A stretch of DNA of 27,469 nt. Source: a virus. The position numbers and the translations under genes were made by a program. The stretch spans positions 1-27,469 of IMG/VR virus record IMGVR_UViG_3300032249_000432, one strand, 5' to 3'. Below the pieces are notes generated by a model, which did no database searches, was not told the origin of the DNA, and worked only from the letters and a program-made list of their open reading frames with translations. Positions 12,916 to 26,422 of the stretch are shown piece by piece. Each line of letters begins with the position of its first letter. Within the stretch, counting starts at the first letter, position 1.

Positions 12916-13917
12916 ATGGCCCAACACGATTACGTCATCGCCAACGGCACTGGTGCCGCTGTTCGTTCTGACCTGAACAACGGCCTCGCCGCGATCGTCA
13001 GCCAGAACAGCGGGGCCACTGAACCGGCAGTGATGTATGCGTATCAGTGGTGGGCTGATACGACCACCGGACTGCTCAAGATCCGCAATGCGGCCAACAA
13101 CGCATGGGTGACCATTGGCACGCTAGCCAATGCAAATCTAGGGCTGGCAACGCTGGCTAGTCCGACTTTTACCGGCACGGTCACCATCCCAGCAGGCGCA
13201 AGTATCTCTGGCTTTGCGCCACTGGCCTCGCCAACATTCACCGGCACGGTCACCATCCCGGCAGGCGCGAGCATCTCCGGGTTTGCACCACTGGCTAGCC
13301 CGACCCTGACAGGTACGCCATCAGCCCCTACTGCAGCAGCTGGCACAAATACAACGCAACTGGCAACCACGGCTTTTGTGCTGGCTAACACCGTTCCAGC
13401 TGGAGCTATTGACTATTTTGCAATGTCTACGGCCCCAACCGGCTACCTTAAGGCTAACGGCGCAGCAATAAGTAGGACAACATATGCAACATTGTTTTCG
13501 GCTATTGGAACGACCTATGGCGCAGGCGATGGCAGTACAACTTTCACCTTGCCGGACCTGCGGGGCGAGTTTATTAGGAGCTGGGCTGATGGTAGAGCAG
13601 TAGACACCGGAAGAACATTCGCCAGTTTCCAAGACCAGGCATACCTAAGCCACAATCACGGCGTTAATGATCCTGGGCACAATCACGGCATAAGTGATCC
13701 TGGGCACGCCCACCGTTGGGGTACTGATGACAATGGTGGTGCTGGTGGGGGTGGCAATCCTGATGCCAATGGTGGTACTGATTGGAAAGCATTCACGGAA
13801 GGTGCAGGCACTGGCATTAGCATCAATGGCAGCGGAACTGGCGTAAGCATCCAAAGCAATGGCGGCAGCGAAACCCGCCCGCGCAACATTGCCCTCCTCG
13901 CCTGCATTAAGTTCTGA
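12916..13917 (+). CDS. tail fibre with two 23-residue repeats, collar domain and HxH metal-site repeats
   Basis: A 333-residue fibre. Residues about 80-126 are two near-identical 23-residue repeats (SPTFTGTVTIPAGASISGF core) plus a third diverged unit that leads into TTQLATTAFV, a motif that closes many fibre shafts. A phage tail collar domain follows at about 165-215: PTGYLKANGAAISRTTYATL, then FSAIGTTYGAGDGSTTFTLP and DLRGEFIRSWADG. The tip region has HNHG-x-x-D-P-G twice and then HAHRWG, HxH motifs that bind metal ions along the axis of trimeric fibres such as T4 gp37. The end (ETRPRNIALLACIKF) is the normal collar-family terminus. Expected to be a trimer at the distal tail. Confidence 0.85.
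   Translation: MAQHDYVIANGTGAAVRSDLNNGLAAIVSQNSGATEPAVMYAYQWWADTTTGLLKIRNAANNAWVTIGTLANANLGLATLASPTFTGTVTIPAGASISGFAPLASPTFTGTVTIPAGASISGFAPLASPTLTGTPSAPTAAAGTNTTQLATTAFVLANTVPAGAIDYFAMSTAPTGYLKANGAAISRTTYATLFSAIGTTYGAGDGSTTFTLPDLRGEFIRSWADGRAVDTGRTFASFQDQAYLSHNHGVNDPGHNHGISDPGHAHRWGTDDNGGAGGGGNPDANGGTDWKAFTEGAGTGISINGSGTGVSIQSNGGSETRPRNIALLACIKF
13156..13293 (+). repeat. two tandem 69-bp repeats in the fibre gene
   Basis: Units at 13156-13224 and 13225-13293 encode the same 23 residues; a 20-base core (ACCGGCACGGTCACCATCCC) is identical at 13171 and 13240, and a diverged third unit begins at 13294. The copies differ mainly at third codon positions, so they are not very recent. Repeat number could change by recombination and would change shaft length. 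Confidence 0.85.
13651..13704 (+). repeat. two tandem 27-bp repeats encoding HNHG-type metal motifs
   Basis: Units 13651-13677 and 13678-13704 each encode HNHG-x-x-DPG and differ at only a few positions; a third shorter HAH unit follows at 13705. HxH triads bind iron in trimeric fibre tips of T4 gp37; by analogy this is a metal-stabilised needle. Confidence 0.75.
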
Positions 13918-19460: not shown

Positions 19461-19976
19461 ATGATCATTCCAGACCACGAGATCGCCCGTTTTTGCCAGC
19501 AGGCGGGGATGGTGCTGCCATACAACCCTGACCTGCAAAACCCCGCCAGCCTTGATGTGTTGCTTGGCGATCGTTTGATGATCGAGGTTGAGGAGCGCCC
19601 CGAGTTGCAGATCCTGGGCATCAGCCACCACACGCAGGCGGCCCCGTACTGGCTCGCGCCGGGTGAGTTCTGCCTAGCCGAGACCCAGGAAATCTTCAAC
19701 CTGCCCGACCACATCGCGGCGCAGTTCGTACTCAAGTCCAGCCGTGCCCGCGAAGGATTGGAGCATCTACTCGCTGGCTATTGCGATCCGGGCTGGCATG
19801 GCAGCCGGTTGACGCTAGAGCTTCAGAACGCGCGCCGGTTCCACAACATCGCGCTGTGGCCTGGCATGAAGATCGGCCAGATGGTGTTTCACCTGATCAG
19901 CGGCACACCGGAACGCACCTACCGCGAAACTGGAAGGTATAACGGGGACCTAGGTGTGACTGCCAGCCGAGGCTAA
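19461..19976 (+). CDS. dCTP deaminase-like enzyme
   Basis: A 171-residue protein of the dCTP deaminase/dUTPase trimer family, which turns dCTP into dUTP on the way to dTTP. Motifs run in order: MIIPDHEIARFCQ at the start, NPASLDVLLGDRLMI, FVLKSSRAREGL (substrate arginines near 95-97), CDPGWHGSRLTLELQN with the catalytic Glu near 120, MKIGQMVFHLIS and the terminal ETGRYNGDLGV that closes the active site. Key residues look present. It is short but within family range. The gene sits at the end of the late operon rather than with replication genes, seven bases after the endolysin. Its 3' end overlaps a convergent small gene. Confidence 0.86.
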   Translation: MIIPDHEIARFCQQAGMVLPYNPDLQNPASLDVLLGDRLMIEVEERPELQILGISHHTQAAPYWLAPGEFCLAETQEIFNLPDHIAAQFVLKSSRAREGLEHLLAGYCDPGWHGSRLTLELQNARRFHNIALWPGMKIGQMVFHLISGTPERTYRETGRYNGDLGVTASRG

Positions 19977-20885: not shown

Positions 20886-21171
20886 CGAGACCCGACTGGT
20901 CACCCGGCGATCAGCCCGCGATCAGATCCATTTGGCCTGGGATTACCGCTGCGCCTACTGCAACGATCCCCTTGGCCGCAGCCCAACGCTCGACCATGTG
21001 GTGCCAAAGGTCCACGGCGGGCTCACCGTCCGCGAAAACCTGATCTCCTGCTGTCTGATGTGCAACAGCCAGAAAGGTCACAAGGACTGGATCGACTGGT
21101 ATCGCGCCCAACACTTCTGGTCAGCTACGGCCGAATGGGCCATTGCACAGTGGCTGGCTGGCGAGATCTAA
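20866..21171 (+). CDS. HNH endonuclease
   Basis: A 101-residue nuclease with the HNH/His-Me fold and two zinc-binding CxxC pairs: YRCAYCNDPLG, TLDHVVPKVHGG (catalytic DH), then NLISCCLMCNSQKG and a C-terminal helix (WATAEWAIAQW-like). The start is uncertain: the frame is open far upstream, and GTG at 20866 is chosen as it overlaps the preceding gene modestly and begins at a natural N-terminus (VEQHHIDETRLVTRRSA). Role could be DNA maturation, host DNA cutting or homing. It stands between two minus-strand groups and overlaps the convergent gene's stop by four bases at 21168-21171. Confidence 0.82.
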   Translation: MEQHHIDETRLVTRRSARDQIHLAWDYRCAYCNDPLGRSPTLDHVVPKVHGGLTVRENLISCCLMCNSQKGHKDWIDWYRAQHFWSATAEWAIAQWLAGEI

Positions 21172-21341
21172 CGCGCCAGCAGGTGGTCCAGATACAGCTC
21201 GGCCTGCCATAGGTCGCTGGAGTAACGGCACATCCCATGCGCGCAGCTGCGGTAATACAACTCACCGCCATCGGCTGGCTGAAGCGTCTCGATCCATCCG
21301 CCATCCCGATCCAAGCGGCTCACCAGCACCGGCTCGCTCAT
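21168..21341 (-). CDS. 57-residue protein, last gene of the twelve-gene minus operon
   Basis: Short protein not obvious as an ORF: MSEPVLVSRLDRDGGWIETL, then QPADGGELYYRSCAHGMCRY and SSDLWQAELYLDHLLAR. It has two Cys and one His in CAHGMC, which could bind metal, and an amphipathic C-terminal helix. I found it by reading the minus strand after the overlapping stop of its upstream neighbour (ATGA at 21338-21341). Function unknown. It ends convergently with the HNH gene. Confidence 0.55.
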   Translation of the reverse strand: MSEPVLVSRLDRDGGWIETLQPADGGELYYRSCAHGMCRYSSDLWQAELYLDHLLAR

Positions 21342-21667
21342 GGCCGATCAAGCACGAATAGCTCACATCTTGCCGCAAACCGGCCACCGCTCTGGCGCGC
21401 CTCTGGAAACTCAAGGTTGCAGCGCTTGCGCGTCGCCTCCCATTGCACACAGTCCCAGCACATCCGGGGCGCCTCAGCCGGGCGGATCCTGGTCAATGCT
21501 GCCGAATAGATCGACTGCGCCCGGAGCAGTGCATCCTGCAGCCGTATGGCGCCGGTGTCAACTTCCAGCTGGTGCTCAGCCTTTGGGCCAAGGTTGACCC
21601 GACAGTGCCAGGTACGGTCGGCACGATCGCAGAAGAGAAGCAGTCGGCCACCATACAAGCTGATCAT
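21338..21667 (-). CDS. Cys-rich (zinc ribbon-like) phage protein
   Basis: A 109-residue protein. The first 60 residues are a mixed alpha/beta region (MISLYGGRLLLFCDRADRTW, RLQDALLRAQSIYSAALTR). The C-terminus carries CWDCVQW (C70, C73), RCNLEFPEARQSGGRF (C83) and AARCELF (C101), four cysteines spaced like a small zinc site. 'CxxC-x-x-[WF]...C-x-L-x-x-P-E...C' is a recurring, uncharacterised phage protein motif. It starts and ends in ATGA overlaps, the eleventh gene of the operon. Binding to nucleic acid or to a host protein is a guess. Confidence 0.68.
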   Translation of the reverse strand: MISLYGGRLLLFCDRADRTWHCRVNLGPKAEHQLEVDTGAIRLQDALLRAQSIYSAALTRIRPAEAPRMCWDCVQWEATRKRCNLEFPEARQSGGRFAARCELFVLDRP

Positions 21668-21879
21668 TCGAGTTCACCGTGACTCGGCGCGTGATACAAC
21701 CGCTCAAGCAACATGCTGCTTGGCTCAAGTGAATCCAGCATTTCATCTGCTGGATCAACCACCACAAACATCGCCGGCGATCCCATCTCCTTCACCACCA
21801 CCAGGCTGGTGCGTGGGCTGCGAGCCAGGACCCACAGCGCTAGCCGCTCAAGCAGGTTTAGGTCGAGCAGTTGCGTCAT
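21664..21879 (-). CDS. small phage protein, unknown
   Basis: A 71-residue protein; ATG 21879 is chosen because it makes an ATGA overlap with the DUF3310 gene, the upstream in-frame ATG (21915) does not. It is predicted alpha/beta: MTQLLDLNLLERLALWVLAR, RTSLVVVKEMGSPAMFVVVD, then PADEMLDSLEPSSMLLERLY. There are no cysteines or membrane spans. Function unknown; tight coupling on both sides suggests it acts with its neighbours. Confidence 0.62.
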   Translation of the reverse strand: MTQLLDLNLLERLALWVLARSPRTSLVVVKEMGSPAMFVVVDPADEMLDSLEPSSMLLERLYHAPSHGELE

Positions 21880-22094
21880 GGCTCCAGTCTGCCAAGCAGT
21901 CGGTCCACATACCACCGGGCCTTGGCAAGCGATTCCCGGCCACCCTTGGCGTGATGGTTCATGCGCCAGATGTATTTCATGGCGTTGCCCTTGCAGTATC
22001 CCCGAAACTCCTCTGGCGTCAGCGCTGCCTCGATCGCGTCAATGCACTCAATTCCGCCCTGTCGGTAGTGCTCTGGGTTCGTTGCATCAGTCAT
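21876..22094 (-). CDS. DUF3310 protein
   Basis: A 72-residue protein of the DUF3310 family, widespread in phages and without an established function. The complete signature is present: NPEHYRQGGIECIDAIEAAL, TPEEFRGYCKGNAMKYIWRM and GGRESLAKARWYVDRLLGRL. It is sometimes called a nucleotide kinase-like protein by context, but no P-loop is visible here, so I do not assign an activity. It is gene nine of the operon with ATGA overlaps on both sides. Confidence 0.85.
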   Translation of the reverse strand: MTDATNPEHYRQGGIECIDAIEAALTPEEFRGYCKGNAMKYIWRMNHHAKGGRESLAKARWYVDRLLGRLEP

Positions 22095-22327
22095 GAGAAG
22101 GTCACGCGTTGAGCGCCGGGGAGGCGGGTTGGATAGCGATGGCGATATTGGCCATCAAGGTTGGGGTCGATCTTCCACCTGATGGATTCGGGCGGAAGTT
22201 CAACTTCTACGGTCCACCAGTTGTGATCGCATTGGTTGCATCTTCTGCGTCGGACGATTGATTCAACCGTGTCGCGGCGTGTTGTGGGGCTGCGGATCTC
22301 TTGGCTATCGCAGATGGGGCAGTGCAT
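22091..22327 (-). CDS. NrdR-like zinc-ribbon protein without ATP-cone (copy 1)
   Basis: A 78-residue protein from ATG 22327 (an in-frame start at 22426 would add an implausible extension). The N-terminus copies the zinc ribbon of the transcription repressor NrdR: MHCPICDSQ with C3 and C6, then VRRRRCNQCDHNWWTVEVEL with C30 and C33. The rest is Pro/Arg-rich and has no ATP-cone domain, which full NrdR (about 150 residues) needs for nucleotide sensing. It may bind DNA or act as a partner. The protein at 23814-24140 has the same four Cys positions and the same W-x-T-V-E-V motif. Separated from its upstream neighbour by ten bases. Confidence 0.78.
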   Translation of the reverse strand: MHCPICDSQEIRSPTTRRDTVESIVRRRRCNQCDHNWWTVEVELPPESIRWKIDPNLDGQYRHRYPTRLPGAQRVTFS

Positions 22328-22337
22328 TAGTCGGTCC

Positions 22338-22604
22338 TCATGCCCACCGATCACCAAGCAACTGCCGGCGGCAGACAGCAATGCACTGTTGCGCATGTTT
22401 CTCAGCCAGGACGCTCTCGGCCTCACCGATCGCGGTCACGCAGGCGGCGTGCAGTTCGGCGTAGCTGGTGTCGCGGAAGTTGGCGGCCACATCAAGGCAA
22501 AACTCCTCCCACAGTCCCGTGTAGGTGTTGCAGGTGCGGCCGCTGGCTGCATAGAGCGCGTCCATCATGTCGGCGCGTTGCTGATCCTGTTGGACTCGGT
22601 TCAT
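22338..22604 (-). CDS. helical small phage protein, unknown
   Basis: An 88-residue protein, largely alpha-helical: MNRVQQDQQRADMMDALYAA, CNTYTGLWEEFCLDVAANFR and a long helix YAELHAACVTAIGEAESVLA. Five cysteines are spread along the chain but do not make a clear CxxC site. It starts in an ATGA overlap (22601-22604). No family recognised. Confidence 0.6.
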   Translation of the reverse strand: MNRVQQDQQRADMMDALYAASGRTCNTYTGLWEEFCLDVAANFRDTSYAELHAACVTAIGEAESVLAEKHAQQCIAVCRRQLLGDRWA

Positions 22605-22807
22605 CGGTGGTCCCGTAATGCTTGGCGAATGGTGAGCAGTTCTTCCCGGCGTGCCGAGATGTGCGGGTGGCTACCCAGCTGGCGGAGCTGATCCAGCCGG
22701 ATGTCAATCAGCCGGCAGAGCCGCAATCGTTCATCCTGCTGGCCAGCATTAAACATGCTGGAATCAGAAATGAGCGCCTCCAGCTTGGCGCGGATATGGT
22801 CACTCAT
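22601..22807 (-). CDS. helical small phage protein, unknown
   Basis: A 68-residue protein, almost entirely charged helix: MSDHIRAKLEALISDSSMFN, AGQQDERLRLCRLIDIRLDQ, then ARREELLTIRQALRDHR. It probably forms a helical hairpin or coiled coil. ATGA overlaps on both sides (22804-22807 and 22601-22604). No family recognised. Confidence 0.62.
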   Translation of the reverse strand: MSDHIRAKLEALISDSSMFNAGQQDERLRLCRLIDIRLDQLRQLGSHPHISARREELLTIRQALRDHR

Positions 22808-23043
22808 TGGGTTACCTCTACCTCAGCACCGGGCCAGCGGGCCTGGGCGTAGCGGATTGCGTGGCGCGTGCTTTCGGCCCGAGTGATCCAGGTCATCGGC
22901 TGAGAACCTGGCTTGAAAACCAAGAGCCGATATTCGCGGGTATGGCTGCCGTGTCGAGGCCGGCTGACGCCTTCCCCGTGCCTGCTTTCCGGCAGTTCTT
23001 CAACCCATTGGAAGGGCAGCATTGCTCCTATTGGTTCAGGCAT
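22804..23043 (-). CDS. small phage protein, unknown
   Basis: A 79-residue protein from ATG 23043; an alternative start at 23091 would lengthen the overlap with the upstream gene from 8 to 56 bases. It begins MPEPIGAMLPFQWVEELPES, then has a basic, probably flexible part (RHGEGVSRPRHGSHTREYRL) and a C-terminal alpha/beta part (WITRAESTRHAIRYAQARWP). The final 40 residues resemble the compact W-x-x-R-A-x-S...A-x-x-x-A-x-x-W unit found in several small genes of this region. Function unknown. Confidence 0.58.
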   Translation of the reverse strand: MPEPIGAMLPFQWVEELPESRHGEGVSRPRHGSHTREYRLLVFKPGSQPMTWITRAESTRHAIRYAQARWPGAEVEVTQ

Positions 23044-23218
23044 GGATGTTCGGATCAGTAACGATTTCAGGGTTGAGCCATTCGAGTTCATTCCACCAAG
23101 GCAGCCAGCTCTCGGCAGCGATCGCCTTGGCTTCGGTAAAGCTATGCGCCGTGATCGATTCGATCACGTTGGCAGCTTTGATCTGGAAGTAGAAGCGGCG
23201 GGGCGTGGTGCGAGTCAT
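23036..23218 (-). CDS. small phage protein, unknown
   Basis: A 60-residue protein: MTRTTPRRFYFQIKAANVIE, SITAHSFTEAKAIAAESWLP and WWNELEWLNPEIVTDP. The fold looks like beta hairpin, helix (a compact unit with F-x-E-A-K-x-x-A-A-x-x-W) and an acidic tail. The start at 23218 is in an ATGA overlap with its neighbour; the ORF is open upstream but the earlier ATG (23335) would overlap the whole neighbour. Function unknown. Confidence 0.62.
   Translation of the reverse strand: MTRTTPRRFYFQIKAANVIESITAHSFTEAKAIAAESWLPWWNELEWLNPEIVTDPNIHA
23118..23125 (+). repeat. HIP1 octamer GCGATCGC
   Basis: One exact copy of the palindrome GCGATCGC, which is over-represented in many cyanobacterial genomes. One copy is weak evidence for a cyanobacterial host and I did not see enrichment along the window. 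Confidence 0.5.
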
Positions 23219-23424
23219 GATGTGGCCTCCTGCCATTCGCCGCACCAAAATGCTCCAAATGTTTCCGGATTGGTCGCTTGAGGCGTGAGTGTGTTCCAGT
23301 CGTACCCGTAAACAGTTGGGGGATACCTCAAGCATTCACTGATGCAATCCATGGTTGGCGAGTCTTCTTGATCAAAAGCCTCGCGGAACCAAAAGCGGCA
23401 GTTTAGGCAGCTGTTTTCAGTCAT
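23215..23424 (-). CDS. Cys-rich small protein (NCRFW type)
   Basis: A 69-residue protein with MTENSCLNCRFWFREAF (C6, C9), TMDCISECLRYPPTVYG (C27, C31) and a C-terminal AFWCGEW (C61). The order CxxC-R-F-W, later C-x-R-Y-P-P and W-C-G-E-W belongs to a widespread unnamed family of phage and bacterial small proteins that probably bind one zinc ion. The related-looking gene at 21338-21667 has a similar CxxC-x-x-W and C-x-x-F layout. ATGA overlaps on both sides. Function unknown. Confidence 0.72.
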   Translation of the reverse strand: MTENSCLNCRFWFREAFDQEDSPTMDCISECLRYPPTVYGYDWNTLTPQATNPETFGAFWCGEWQEATS

Positions 23425-23552
23425 GGCTTCACCTCCAGATGAGCGGCAGGGTGTTGAACTGCTTGCTGCTTGGCGGTGTCATAGCCGGCGGCATAGACGC
23501 AAGCCAGCAGCACAACGACTGCGATGCGGTTGATGATGGGGTTGTTGATCAT
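23421..23552 (-). CDS. 43-residue membrane microprotein
   Basis: A short gene read between two ATGA overlaps: MINNPIINRIAVVVLLACVY, then AAGYDTAKQQAVQHPAAHLE and VKP. One membrane span covers about residues 6-22, with a short polar tail. The Cys at 18 is preceded by L-L-A, a possible lipobox (L-L-A-C), so a lipoprotein is possible, but the short N-terminus is unusual for one. Together with the next protein, which is also membrane-anchored, it may form a small membrane complex. Function unknown. Confidence 0.58.
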   Translation of the reverse strand: MINNPIINRIAVVVLLACVYAAGYDTAKQQAVQHPAAHLEVKP

Positions 23553-23743
23553 GAGGCAAGCGCCTGACGGACGCGGTAGCGGGTGATTTTAAGGCGAGCG
23601 GCGATCTGGCGTTGGCTGTGGCCAGCGCGTTGCAAGATGCGGATCCGGCGTTGATCAGAGGCAGTGAGCCAGTCGATCAAGGCAACCAGCACCAGCAACG
23701 GCAGCAGCAGCTTCCAGATCAATAGGAAGGTGGTGGTGAGCAT
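23549..23743 (-). CDS. membrane-anchored helix-turn-helix protein, first gene of the twelve-gene operon
   Basis: A 64-residue protein with an N-terminal membrane span at about residues 5-24 (TFLLIWKLLLPLLVLVALID) and a C-terminal helix-turn-helix of the resolvase/Homeodomain-like type: RRIRILQRAGHSQRQIAARL then KITRYRVRQAL. The G-H-S-Q-R-Q-I-A-A-R-L core is a classic turn plus recognition helix. Such a very small protein would hold DNA at the membrane or sense membrane state; soluble HTH control of the operon is also possible. It starts about 40 bases from the putative promoter motif at 23782 and its end is in an ATGA overlap with the next gene. Confidence 0.72.
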   Translation of the reverse strand: MLTTTFLLIWKLLLPLLVLVALIDWLTASDQRRIRILQRAGHSQRQIAARLKITRYRVRQALAS

Positions 23744-23775
23744 GGGTGAGATGCGGTGGCCTCGTCGGCCGTGCG

Positions 23776-23803
23776 CGAATCATACACCGTAGGCGGTGCA
23801 CTC
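23776..23803 (-). promoter_or_regulatory. promoter region of the twelve-gene operon with CTACGGTGTATGAT motif and inverted repeat
   Basis: The minus strand reads CTACGGTGTATGAT at 23792-23779, giving TATGAT as a -10-like box about 33-40 bases upstream of the start at 23743. Just upstream is GGCGG-N6-CCGCC with a central GTGCAC palindrome, which could be an operator covering the weak -35. CTRCGGTGTAT is shared with 20590-20600. No good TTGACA match is visible. Confidence 0.42.
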
Positions 23804-23813
23804 CGCCACCGGG

Positions 23814-24140
23814 TCAGTCACACTTCGTTACGCGGTGCCGGACGTCGGATTCTCTTGACCTTCGCTCGTTATATGCCTGCAGCCCTGCCAACTGATCCTT
23901 TGCCTCCTCATGGCTCAAGCCGATCCGCGTGTGCCCTGCTTGCACCTCCACCGGCACGCGCAGCACCGGCTTGCCATTTGACGCGCGCCAACCGATCGCA
24001 TAGCTCGGGACTGGCACCTCCACCGTGAACCACACATTCCCGCACGCCTCACACACGCGCTTGCGCACTGTTTGGTCGGCTAGCTGGCTATTGGTAGATG
24101 GCGCACGGCTGCGATCGTGACCGCATTTGGAGCATTGCAT
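23814..24140 (-). CDS. NrdR-like zinc-ribbon protein without ATP-cone (copy 2)
   Basis: A 108-residue protein from ATG 24140 (an in-frame start at 24260 would extend into the divergent gene). MQCSKCGHD (C3, C6) and VRKRVCEACGNVWFTVEVPV (C30, C33) copy the NrdR zinc ribbon in the same positions as the protein at 22091-22327. Both have W-x-T-V-E-V and then a short I-x-W. Downstream of the ribbon this one carries a longer basic-to-acidic helical tail (GLSHEEAKDQLAGLQAYNER) instead of an ATP-cone. It lies 70 bases upstream of the twelve-gene operon, with its own putative promoter. Role: possible DNA-binding regulator, inferred only. Confidence 0.74.
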   Translation of the reverse strand: MQCSKCGHDRSRAPSTNSQLADQTVRKRVCEACGNVWFTVEVPVPSYAIGWRASNGKPVLRVPVEVQAGHTRIGLSHEEAKDQLAGLQAYNERRSRESDVRHRVTKCD

Positions 24141-24144
24141 CGGC

Positions 24145-24171
24145 ATTATGGGAGCAATCTGCTCCTGGCAA
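24145..24171 (-). promoter_or_regulatory. promoter with inverted repeat filling its spacer
   Basis: On the minus strand TTGCCA (24171-24166), the perfect repeat GGAGCAGATTGCTCC (24165-24151) and CATAAT (24150-24145) follow one another, ending four bases before the ATG at 24140. A spacer of 15 is shorter than the optimal 17, and the transcript would be nearly leaderless. Binding of a dimer on the repeat would block this promoter. All by eye. Confidence 0.42.
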
Positions 24172-24192
24172 GTGGAACAATTCGGACAGTGG

Positions 24193-24378
24193 ATGATCCC
24201 TAAGGTGGCGACTGAAGACCAGCTCAAGATCGAGATAATGGCCCGGCGCCTTGAAATCACCGAAAACGTTGGACCTCTTGCGGCATCGCTCTACCGCTCA
24301 TGGAACCTTCAGCAGGCATTGCTTCAGCAGGCGACCAATGAGATCGCCCGCCTAGAGCTGCTGCTGATGAAGCCCTAA
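24193..24378 (+). CDS. small helical phage protein, unknown
   Basis: A 61-residue protein: MIPKVATEDQLKIEIMARRL, EITENVGPLAASLYRSWNLQ and QALLQQATNEIARLELLLMK-P. It is nearly all charged or amphipathic helix. ATG 24193 is chosen because the longer in-frame start (24127) runs into the divergent gene's coding start at 24140 and its promoter. The 3' end overlaps the convergent SSB-like gene by four bases. It diverges from the copy 2 zinc-ribbon gene, so the two could share control. Function unknown. Confidence 0.58.
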   Translation: MIPKVATEDQLKIEIMARRLEITENVGPLAASLYRSWNLQQALLQQATNEIARLELLLMKP

Positions 24379-24752
24379 AACAGATCAGCCTCAGTGATCT
24401 CGACCACTTCGCCTCCAGTCGCCTTGGCCAGGCTGTCAGCCGCACCAGCAGCGGCCATTTTCTCCTCAATAGCCTTCATCGTCTTGTAATCAGGCTCGAA
24501 GGCAAGGCTGAGATAGTTCTGGCCACTGGCAGCCTGTTTGGTCCAACCGCTGATCTTGACGGGGATCTCACCGCGATCATTGGGGCTGGCATTCATGACA
24601 TAGGACGCAAACGCCATCCGATCCTCCTCCTTGATGCTGAACACGCCATCAAATGCCGGATAGTTGCGAGTCGGGTCGTAGCGATCCTTAAAGCGCTCCT
24701 GCAGCTTCTCAGGTGTGTTCTTGAATAATGCGCCGTTGGCTTTAAAAGTCAC
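24375..24752 (-). CDS. probable single-stranded DNA-binding protein
   Basis: A 125-residue protein in the recombination operon: MTFKANGALFKNTPEKLQER, YPAFDGVFSIKEEDRMAFAS, YVMNASPNDRGEIPVKISGW and NYLSLAFEP, an OB-fold-like beta order similar to phage SSB-type or DUF736-like proteins. The C-terminus is a flexible linker followed by EVVEITEADLF, an acidic tip ending in an aromatic residue as in bacterial SSB and T7 gp2.5, where it recruits partner proteins. This is the last gene of a minus-strand operon after exonuclease, RecT-like and HTH genes. It overlaps the HTH gene by four bases. Assignment rests on context, fold pattern and the tip. Confidence 0.68.
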   Translation of the reverse strand: MTFKANGALFKNTPEKLQERFKDRYDPTRNYPAFDGVFSIKEEDRMAFASYVMNASPNDRGEIPVKISGWTKQAASGQNYLSLAFEPDYKTMKAIEEKMAAAGAADSLAKATGGEVVEITEADLF

Positions 24753-24940
24753 TGATTTTCAGGGGTAATGGTGTTGGCCTTTTCGTATTGCTCCACCATG
24801 GCCAGGGGGTAGAGCACGCGACCGTTGATCTTAGTAAAAGCAGGCCCAGTATCACTGGATCGCCAACGGATCAACGTCTGGCGGTGGACATGCCACCGCT
24901 CAGCCAGTTGCAGGTCAGTCAAGAATTCAGAAGAGTTCAT
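24749..24940 (-). CDS. excisionase-like / MerR-type small HTH protein
   Basis: A 63-residue DNA-binding protein of the HTH_17 (excisionase/MerR-like) kind: FLTDLQLAERWHVHRQTLIR, then WRSSDTGPAFTKINGRVLYP and LAMVEQYEKANT. The pattern L-A-E-R-W-x-V-x-R-x-T-x-x-R-W...G-R-V-x-Y is the winged-helix and wing signature. ATG 24940 is preferred over the TTG at 24946 because a nine-base SD (GGAGGTGAT) ends six bases upstream of it, inside the end of the RecT-like gene. It could be an excisionase, a transcription factor or a recombination accessory protein. Confidence 0.75.
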   Translation of the reverse strand: MNSSEFLTDLQLAERWHVHRQTLIRWRSSDTGPAFTKINGRVLYPLAMVEQYEKANTITPENQ

Positions 24941-25583
24941 CGGCAATCACCTCCACAGGTTGTGCAATCGTTGCATTGAGCTGTTCCAGGTCGGTCTTCG
25001 GCAATTCAGACTTGACCGTCACCGGCTCGATGTCAACCACCTCCTCCTGAGTCTGAATGCCCACCAGCAGCTCTGGGATGTAGAGACGGCCCCAGAAGGC
25101 CGCAGCCCTATACCTGATCATCAAATCCGGGAGGGTTAGCCACTTGCTGCCCGACTTCGTGGCCCATCCTTCCTTTTTGGCCATCGCCATGGTGACGGTC
25201 GGGCCGCGGAGATCCTCGCCGGTTTTCAACTCAGTTGCGACGCAGGTGCAGGCCAACGTGTCACCCTGACCCGTCACCTCATATCGCAGCGGACTGAACC
25301 GACCGCAGCCATTGATCAAGCCAATGATGAATTGACTGCTCCAGCTGGGGCGGCCATGAATGATATGCAGATTCTGCATCACCTGAAACGGGCTCATCCG
25401 CATTCGATTAGCAATCTCCAAGGCGACCAAGCAGTTGGCGAATCCCTGCTGCCCTTGGAACTGCGGAGGGATCAACGTGCTGCTGGCCAGGGCCTTAGCG
25501 ATCCGTTGGGCATCCTCAAAAGCTTGGATGCCGGAGAACACCGAGCCGGTGCTGGTGGTGGTGAGTGCTGTGGAGTCAGTCAT
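24927..25583 (-). CDS. RecT-like single-strand annealing protein
   Basis: A 218-residue protein between an exonuclease and an SSB-like gene, the normal RecE-RecT order. The sequence IAKALASSTLIPPQFQG near 30, ANCLVALEIANRMRMSPFQV near 50, MQNLHIIHGRPSWSSQFIIG near 70, CGRFSPLRY and MIRYRAAAFWGRLYIPELL near 155 are the repeated marks of a phage family I know as RecT-type recombination proteins. It would anneal DNA strands cut by the exonuclease. The C-terminus is an acidic linker ending EVIADELF, similar to the SSB tip in the next-but-one gene. The stop of the exonuclease overlaps the start by one base. The family call rests largely on context. Confidence 0.72.
   Translation of the reverse strand: MTDSTALTTTSTGSVFSGIQAFEDAQRIAKALASSTLIPPQFQGQQGFANCLVALEIANRMRMSPFQVMQNLHIIHGRPSWSSQFIIGLINGCGRFSPLRYEVTGQGDTLACTCVATELKTGEDLRGPTVTMAMAKKEGWATKSGSKWLTLPDLMIRYRAAAFWGRLYIPELLVGIQTQEEVVDIEPVTVKSELPKTDLEQLNATIAQPVEVIADELF
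24946..24954 (-). promoter_or_regulatory. strong Shine-Dalgarno GGAGGTGAT inside the recT-like gene
   Basis: Nine bases fully complementary to the canonical 16S rRNA 3' end, six bases before the HTH start at 24940 when counted from the T. It lies in the codons for Glu-Val-Ile near the RecT-like C-terminus. Few other genes here have a comparable site, so it settles the start choice for the HTH gene. Confidence 0.7.
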
Positions 25584-26422
25584 CAGTAGGTCTCAATCTC
25601 AGGTAGTTGTTCCATGGATCCGTCTGGCCGCGGCATCATCCAGCCGGGCAAGCTAATCGGTTCGATCTGATCGCTGTAACCGGGCCACGCGCCAGCCTGT
25701 TTGCAGGTGGCGAGCACATCCAGATCGCGCGCCGCCGTCTCGGCGCCAATCGTCACAATGACTGGCGCAGCAGCATAGACAGCAACTGCATAGGGTGGCT
25801 TTTTCTCCACACACACAAACAGAAACTGCTCAGGTCGGCAGCCAGTGGCAGCCTGCACCCCGTCCAGATACCAGCTGCTCTGCACGTGATACCTGAATGC
25901 CCCGATCGATTTGCGGAACCCTGCAGGGCTGGCGTCTTCGGTGCTTTTCAAGTCAACAATCAACCGGCCGTCATTGGTCAGCCAGTCCGGTCGGCACTTG
26001 CAGGCCAGTCCCGTTCTCGGATCTGTCCACATGTGGGTGGTCTCGGCTTTGCCCTCCCAGTGCAGCAATGCCGCAGCAGCGGGATGCGCCCACACAGCCT
26101 CGGCCATCCGGCTGATCTGTGCGCGATCATCGGCGGCGATCAGTTCACGGTCGCCAGCCTCAGCCTCAAACTCGGCCCAGGCTTCCTTGCCGGCCTTGGT
26201 ACGGCGATCAACCTGCGGCGCTGTGATGTAGCGCTCCTCAAACTGATCCTGCTCCAGCACCAGCGTATGCAGCGCGGTTCCGATGCGCATGGCTGGCGTT
26301 GGCTCAGGCACCTCGCGCTTCGGATCGATATAGCGTGCCCAGTAATGCAGCGGACTACGGGCCACCAGATCGAGGTGGCTTTTGCTCACCGCTGGGTGAG
26401 CGTGATATGCGGCGTTGTCCAT
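25583..26422 (-). CDS. RecE-type exonuclease (PD-(D/E)XK, exonuclease VIII C-terminal family)
   Basis: A 279-residue nuclease that should resect double-stranded DNA ends for the annealing protein encoded next. Key marks: HPAVSKSHLDLVARSPLHYW (family opening), MRIGTALHTLVLEQDQF near 46, the active-site series E127 (GKAE), D146 (KCRPDWL) and D157-L-K159 (LIVDLKST), then YHVQSSWYLDGVQ near 178 with the conserved Q and Y of the motif. The length is normal for phage RecE C-terminal nucleases, which lack the large E. coli N-terminal part. First gene of a four-gene minus operon; divergent to the helicase. Confidence 0.88.
   Translation of the reverse strand: MDNAAYHAHPAVSKSHLDLVARSPLHYWARYIDPKREVPEPTPAMRIGTALHTLVLEQDQFEERYITAPQVDRRTKAGKEAWAEFEAEAGDRELIAADDRAQISRMAEAVWAHPAAAALLHWEGKAETTHMWTDPRTGLACKCRPDWLTNDGRLIVDLKSTEDASPAGFRKSIGAFRYHVQSSWYLDGVQAATGCRPEQFLFVCVEKKPPYAVAVYAAAPVIVTIGAETAARDLDVLATCKQAGAWPGYSDQIEPISLPGWMMPRPDGSMEQLPEIETY

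Follow-up and report, generated by a model that had tools for sequence, protein, structure and literature searches.

An array of twelve small overlapping genes with a conserved chassis and exchangeable slots in a fragment of an S-CBS3-related cyanosiphovirus

The IMG/VR virus record IMGVR_UViG_3300032249_000432 (27,469 bases; hereafter the window, meaning the whole stretch of DNA that was analyzed) carries on its minus strand twelve successive open reading frames (ORFs) of 43-109 codons, numbered here g1 to g12 in the direction of reading, which together span positions 23743-21168. Its protein matches mark the window as an incomplete piece of a cyanosiphovirus genome, with Synechococcus phage S-CBS3 as a relative. 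It is probable that the array is the accessory part of an S-CBS3-type replication and recombination arm, in which a fixed chassis of genes and a few exchangeable slots are combined into one coupled early operon. The layout is new, the principles behind it are known, and the operon is real and strongly conserved.

The lengths of g1 to g12 are 64, 43, 69, 60, 79, 68, 88, 78, 72, 71, 109 and 57 codons, respectively, and the eleven junctions between them comprise nine four-base ATGA overlaps (-4), one eight-base overlap (-8, g4/g5) and one ten-base gap (+10, g7/g8), all exactly as listed in an earlier note on this DNA. With ten of the eleven junctions overlapping and the remaining one a gap of only ten bases, the array has the overlapping stop and start codons expected of an operon read by termination-reinitiation. 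Nine four-base overlaps in eleven junctions is unusual even for such phages, because in the replication/early regions of five annotated cyanophages only 18 of 81 junctions (22%) were of this type (Fisher P = 2e-4), as were two of 18 on the structural arm of the window itself (P = 2.5e-4), where starts were chosen from ORF lists and the gene list is rough. The twelve ORFs are real genes and eleven of them are under purifying selection, as judged by homologues of those eleven in related virus contigs and by median ratios of nonsynonymous to synonymous polymorphism (pN/pS) of 0.25-0.61 (for g3 from a single pair). The twelfth, g8, was accepted as a gene because it has a Pfam match above the cut-off and sits in an always-occupied slot.

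Relatives of the array were collected by scans with DUF3310, g11, g5 and g1, which yielded 259 loci in which three or more chassis genes were present and, once near-identical loci had been removed, 152 non-redundant contigs. The 259 loci offer 18,592 gene pairs between the exonuclease gene upstream of the array and g12, and only three of these depart from the common order (18,589 agree); the unconserved order that the earlier note had named as evidence against its operon was thus not what the relatives display. The chassis consists of g4, g5, g6, g7, g9, g10, g11 and g12, and within it three blocks are essentially never split. The g6/g7 pair was split by a gap in none of 144 contigs and had the -4 overlap in 132 of them; g9/g10 was split in none of 145 (-4 in 114, -1 in 20); g10/g11 showed no gap, with -4 in 141 of 144 contigs and the remainder being one -1 overlap and two out-of-order calls; and for g4/g5, of 123 contigs 120 preserved the -8 arrangement and two had a gap. 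Based on this pattern, the products of g4-g5, g6-g7 and g9-g10-g11 are probably interacting partners.

Between these blocks, gene content turns over. Extra sequence, nearly always in the form of whole genes, was present between g5 and g6 in 64 of 126 contigs, and gene-sized room was present between g7 and g9 in all of 143 contigs (an ATG-only rule called no ORF in 17 of them), with contents that differ among the relatives examined and of which g8 is one example. A third exchange site, where genes are swapped, lies before g4. In total, 447 cargo genes in 55 families were identified in the slots of the relatives, and on a chassis tree the content of g7/g9 must have changed at least 28 times and that of g5/g6 about 45 times. 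The borders of the exchanges are precise: in relatives that are 87-93% identical to the window over the flanking chassis, homology is lost 0-8 bases beyond the g7 stop codon and regained 1-2 bases ahead of the g9 start codon, g3 is precisely absent in relatives L165 and L239, and in relative L002 a 502-base insert adds two genes to the g5/g6 slot. Among the recognized cargo are ThyX and dCTP deaminase, a double-psi beta-barrel protein, helix-turn-helix (HTH)-like and zinc-ribbon proteins, and a sigma factor ahead of g6 in cultured S-CBS3; a by-eye likeness of cargo family 3 to ribbon-helix-helix proteins had no Pfam support and was dropped. One cargo family of 134 copies, with '..PITPPPELV..' and 'LSPAAQAV..' types, occurs in every slot (g5/g6, g7/g9 and the one before g4; for example, in L023, L036 and L021) and can be present several times over within one slot.

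Most cargo genes join the array by the same kinds of overlap as chassis genes. Under a tiling rule that gave no reward to -4, -8 or -1 offsets, allowed ATG starts only and penalized gaps and long overlaps, 355 of the 447 cargo genes (79%) started at -4, -8 or -1 from the preceding stop, and none started at 0 to +5. Since 79% of the cargo joins by a four-, eight- or one-base overlap, the coupling outlives the individual genes. That the junctions are recombination seams formed by microhomology was unsupported at the g5/g6 slot, the only one compared: there the opening bases of the first cargo gene resembled those of the chassis gene that follows no more than they resembled other starts (shared prefix of 3.25 bases on average, against 2.5-4.0 in controls). 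Extended junction homology was likewise unsupported; across cargo family pairs only the overlap bases were near-invariant.

In the operon that we propose, a single leftward message would probably begin upstream of g1 and end at g12, and ribosomes would be handed from gene to gene by termination-reinitiation at the overlapping stop and start codons, with Shine-Dalgarno (SD) sites near the ends of some upstream genes aiding the hand-over. Tested gene pairs with such overlaps are translationally coupled, and reinitiation is lost once the distance between stop and start reaches about 20 bases (PMC6728339, PMC10666635). Recombination would exchange whole genes at the slot ahead of g4 and at those in g5/g6 and g7/g9, and the insertions that persist would mostly be those that restore a 4-, 8- or 1-base overlap, because, we propose, a promoterless internal gene is expressed only with ribosome hand-over. 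We tentatively carry this one step further, and it is possible that the array acts as a plug-in platform in which the chassis loads translation onto the slots, so that a promoterless newcomer that keeps an ATGA-type overlap would immediately be expressed as an early gene, in an amount dictated by its place in the array, and selection would maintain the coupling rule rather than the gene content.

Several points weigh against the operon being coupled and early in this way. The cargo starts behind the 79% were themselves set by a rule (the 5'-most ATG, with overlap of up to 30 bases). SD-like sites were found inside the upstream gene for 77% of g6, 56% of g11 and 12% of g10 starts, and strict coupling is unproven because such internal sites permit independent initiation. 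No sigma-70 consensus promoter was found. Most chassis genes had no match of known function, the structure models of g7 and g11 found no significant fold match, and the nucleotide-supply theme discussed below leans on g9 and a minority of the slot contents. The strict coupling claimed in the earlier note therefore needs qualification: the junction types do favor termination-reinitiation, but several internal starts carry SD-like sites, and coupling may be assisted by those sites rather than strict.

Tight arrays of small genes are usual in phages, and it could be argued that the small early genes here are simply packed, with coupling not under selection and ATGA being the easiest tight junction to form. 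It is in keeping with such plain genome compaction that prokaryotes in general overlap their genes most often by 4, 1 or 8 bases (PMC10666635). However, the structural arm of the window and the early regions of other cyanophages are far less overlapped than the array, cargo avoids the 0 to +5 positions even though these cost almost nothing in length, and individual junctions keep the same overlap type across divergent contigs. Given these observations, we regard compaction by itself as a rather unlikely explanation of the array.

With regard to function, the contents of the slots, the DUF3310 domain of g9, the HTH of g1, the zinc ribbon of g8 and the zinc knuckle-like domain of g11 lead us to the reading that the likely role of the operon is early transcription reprogramming and thymidylate supply rather than that of a dedicated defense system. 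The products would probably be small nucleic-acid-binding regulators (g1, g8 and g11) together with nucleotide-supply proteins (g9 and, in relatives, ThyX or dCTP deaminase). Consistent with this, what relatives carry in the g7/g9 slot, beside the DUF3310 gene, can be a zinc ribbon, an HTH-like protein, ThyX or dCTP deaminase; the window has a dCTP deaminase gene of its own at 19461-19976. DUF3310 has been linked to the nucleotide kinase gp1.7 of T7, and in mycobacteriophages four proteins that end in a DUF3310 domain were toxic when overexpressed (PMC11797047).

The rapid turnover of small cargo, including a family that is repeated several times in one slot, would also fit a counter-defense island whose slots carry fast-exchanged inhibitors of host immunity. 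Nevertheless, the recognizable cargo is regulatory, nucleotide-metabolic or cell-wall related, and a PADLOC scan of ten window proteins (g1-g8, g10 and g11) gave no convincing match, only a weak one in which a CARF model aligned with the g1 HTH at E 0.007. The earlier note's candidate role in defense or counter-defense thus gained no positive evidence, and we consider it improbable. A single complex or pathway that unites all twelve products and requires fixed ratios, in line with the common task proposed in the earlier note, agrees with the conserved order and overlaps and with the enrichment of complex subunits among overlapping gene pairs (PMC10666635), but is very improbable given that g3 and g8 are replaced or missing in close relatives, g1 and g2 are missing from many contigs (to which contig ends contribute), unrelated cargo sits mid-operon, and g5, g9, g10 and g11 are not detected in S-CBS3. 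What survives of that proposal is at most the possibility of fixed ratios and a common task within the three blocks that are essentially never split. The array is an operon-like unit of strongly conserved order, but g3 and g8 are exchangeable and g5/g6 is often split by cargo.

The first two genes of the array encode probable membrane-type proteins. The 64-residue product of g1 (23549-23743) has an N-terminal hydrophobic, probably transmembrane, helix and a C-terminal HTH weakly like sigma-70 region 4, for which all HTH and sigma-70 matches in Pfam and NCBIfam were below threshold; the combination of a predicted membrane helix with a predicted HTH makes a membrane-anchored DNA-binding protein possible. 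It was found in 98 of 152 contigs (pN/pS 0.38), with no relative in cultured phage records. The leader before it (23744-23813) has no SD-like site, and in many relatives contains a GC-rich hairpin; across g1 leaders an SD-like site was present in 5%, the median folding z was -1.1 versus about 0 at most other starts tested, and a -10-like box of the TATGAT type lay upstream of g1 in only five of 94. Rfam and tRNA scans found nothing. The g2 product (23421-23552; 43 residues) is a single-pass membrane-type microprotein whose gene overlaps g1 by four bases and was found in 62 of 152 contigs (pN/pS 0.59). The Cys-rich g3 (23215-23424; 69 residues) is cargo: near relatives lack it or have another gene in its place, with junctions exact to the codon.

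Among the chassis genes, g4 (23036-23218; 60 residues) belongs to phrog_22131 (E 1.5e-25), a family without known function, and was found in 136 of 152 contigs as well as in S-CBS1, S-CBS3, S-H1 and KBS-S-2A. Paralogy between it and g5 (22804-23043; 79 residues), which it overlaps by the eight bases mentioned above, was not supported, with no profile match between the two. The slot that separates g5 from g6 (22601-22807; 68 residues) in relatives is unoccupied in the window. A four-helix protein (AlphaFold pLDDT, the predicted local distance difference test score, of 79) is predicted for g7 (22338-22604; 88 residues), which had no significant PDB match and has a homologue in S-CBS3.

The occupant of the g7-g9 slot in the window, g8 (22091-22327; 78 residues), contains the N-terminal zinc ribbon of NrdR (PF22811, Zn_ribbon_NrdR; 34.5 bits, cut-off 27.2), without being a full-length NrdR with an ATP-cone (TIGR00244 25.3 bits, cut-off 124.65, profile positions 1-43 of 147), and none of the first 37 relatives had a homologue of it in the corresponding place. 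Together with the PHROG assignment of g4, this corrects the statement that DUF3310 is the only named family of the array. The leftward arm holds two NrdR-type zinc-ribbon genes that appear to be paralogues, namely the slot cargo g8 and a conserved gene at 23814-24149 (minus strand), which scores 26.6 bits against PF22811, just under the cut-off, and lies outside the overlap chain. A stand-alone DUF3310 domain (PF11753; E 6.8e-19, 68.1 bits, cut-off 24, profile 2-60 of 60) makes up g9 (21876-22094; 72 residues), which matches PHROG 'nucleotide kinase' families and has a pN/pS of 0.25, and is overlapped by the chassis gene g10 (21664-21879; 71 residues). In g11 (21338-21667; 109 residues) a beta-rich N-terminal domain is followed by a C-terminal CxxC...C...PE...C zinc knuckle-like domain; no match was found among PDB sequences. 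Domains like that at the end of g11 were identified by eye in fusions to HTH-like segments or an NrdR-like ribbon (L213, L201, L017, L072 and L032). The last gene, g12 (21168-21341; 57 residues), was found in 134 of 152 contigs and in S-CBS3, and its stop codon overlaps, tail to tail at 21168-21171, that of a converging HNH gene.

Upstream of the array and of the conserved zinc-ribbon gene is a recombination module (24375-26422, minus strand) of conserved order, with exonuclease VIII and RecT (both assigned by PHROG/Pfam), an HTH protein, and a small conserved gene in the position taken by the single-stranded DNA-binding protein (SSB) gene in other cyanophages. The SSB-position and zinc-ribbon genes flank a plus-strand ORF at 24172-24378, which begins with GTG and has about 68 codons; similar ORFs were present in most relatives inspected, and the gap is near-constant in length in about 100 contigs. 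Elsewhere in the window, a tail-fibre-like gene at 12916-13917 (plus strand) has near-perfect internal repeats (SPTFTGTVTIPAGASISGFAPLA). The tail protein of the window is nearest to Prochlorococcus phage proteins, g4 to those of Synechococcus phages and g7 to that of S-CBS3, and we infer that the host of the virus is among the aquatic cyanobacteria. A scan of GTDB bacterial genomes with g11 gave zero confirmed relatives, and therefore no prophage or host evidence came by that route.

The layout of the array indicates which small genes belong together, which are swapped and where new cargo will turn up, and its slots could be searched for small regulators and for nucleotide-metabolism or host-takeover proteins in cyanophages. 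The approximately 150 natural variants, along with the cultured S-CBS3, make the rule of overlap restoration testable. Mosaic tailed-phage genomes exchange material at gene boundaries, and the array resembles them in the replacement of whole genes at gene borders in the early region, but differs in that exchange is concentrated in a few fixed slots and most inserted genes keep a start/stop overlap. As for g9, it belongs with the DUF3310 proteins, whose domain PHROG names and the literature connect to T7 gp1.7, but at only 72 residues it comprises that domain alone and is at most a putative kinase. The termination-reinitiation pairs (ATGA/TGATG) of Huber et al. (2019, 2023) have the same -4, -1 and -8 junctions; those, however, are pairs of conserved cellular genes, whereas here ten of eleven successive junctions overlap and the overlaps persist through the exchange of cargo. 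The closest system is S-CBS3 (NC_015465), isolated on Synechococcus sp. CB0202 and grouped in a published comparison with S-CBS1 and S-LBS1, which are viruses of 30-35 kilobases (PMC6157547). It differs from the window in having fewer overlaps and a sigma factor gene before g6, and family hidden Markov models did not detect g5, g9, g10 or g11 in it. It shares with the window the succession of g4, g6, g7, a slot gene and g12, followed by the converging HNH gene, with -4 overlaps at g6/g7 and between g7 and the slot gene, and this early-cassette order (g4 ... g6-g7-slot ... g12-HNH) is likewise that of the window and of its IMG/VR relatives.

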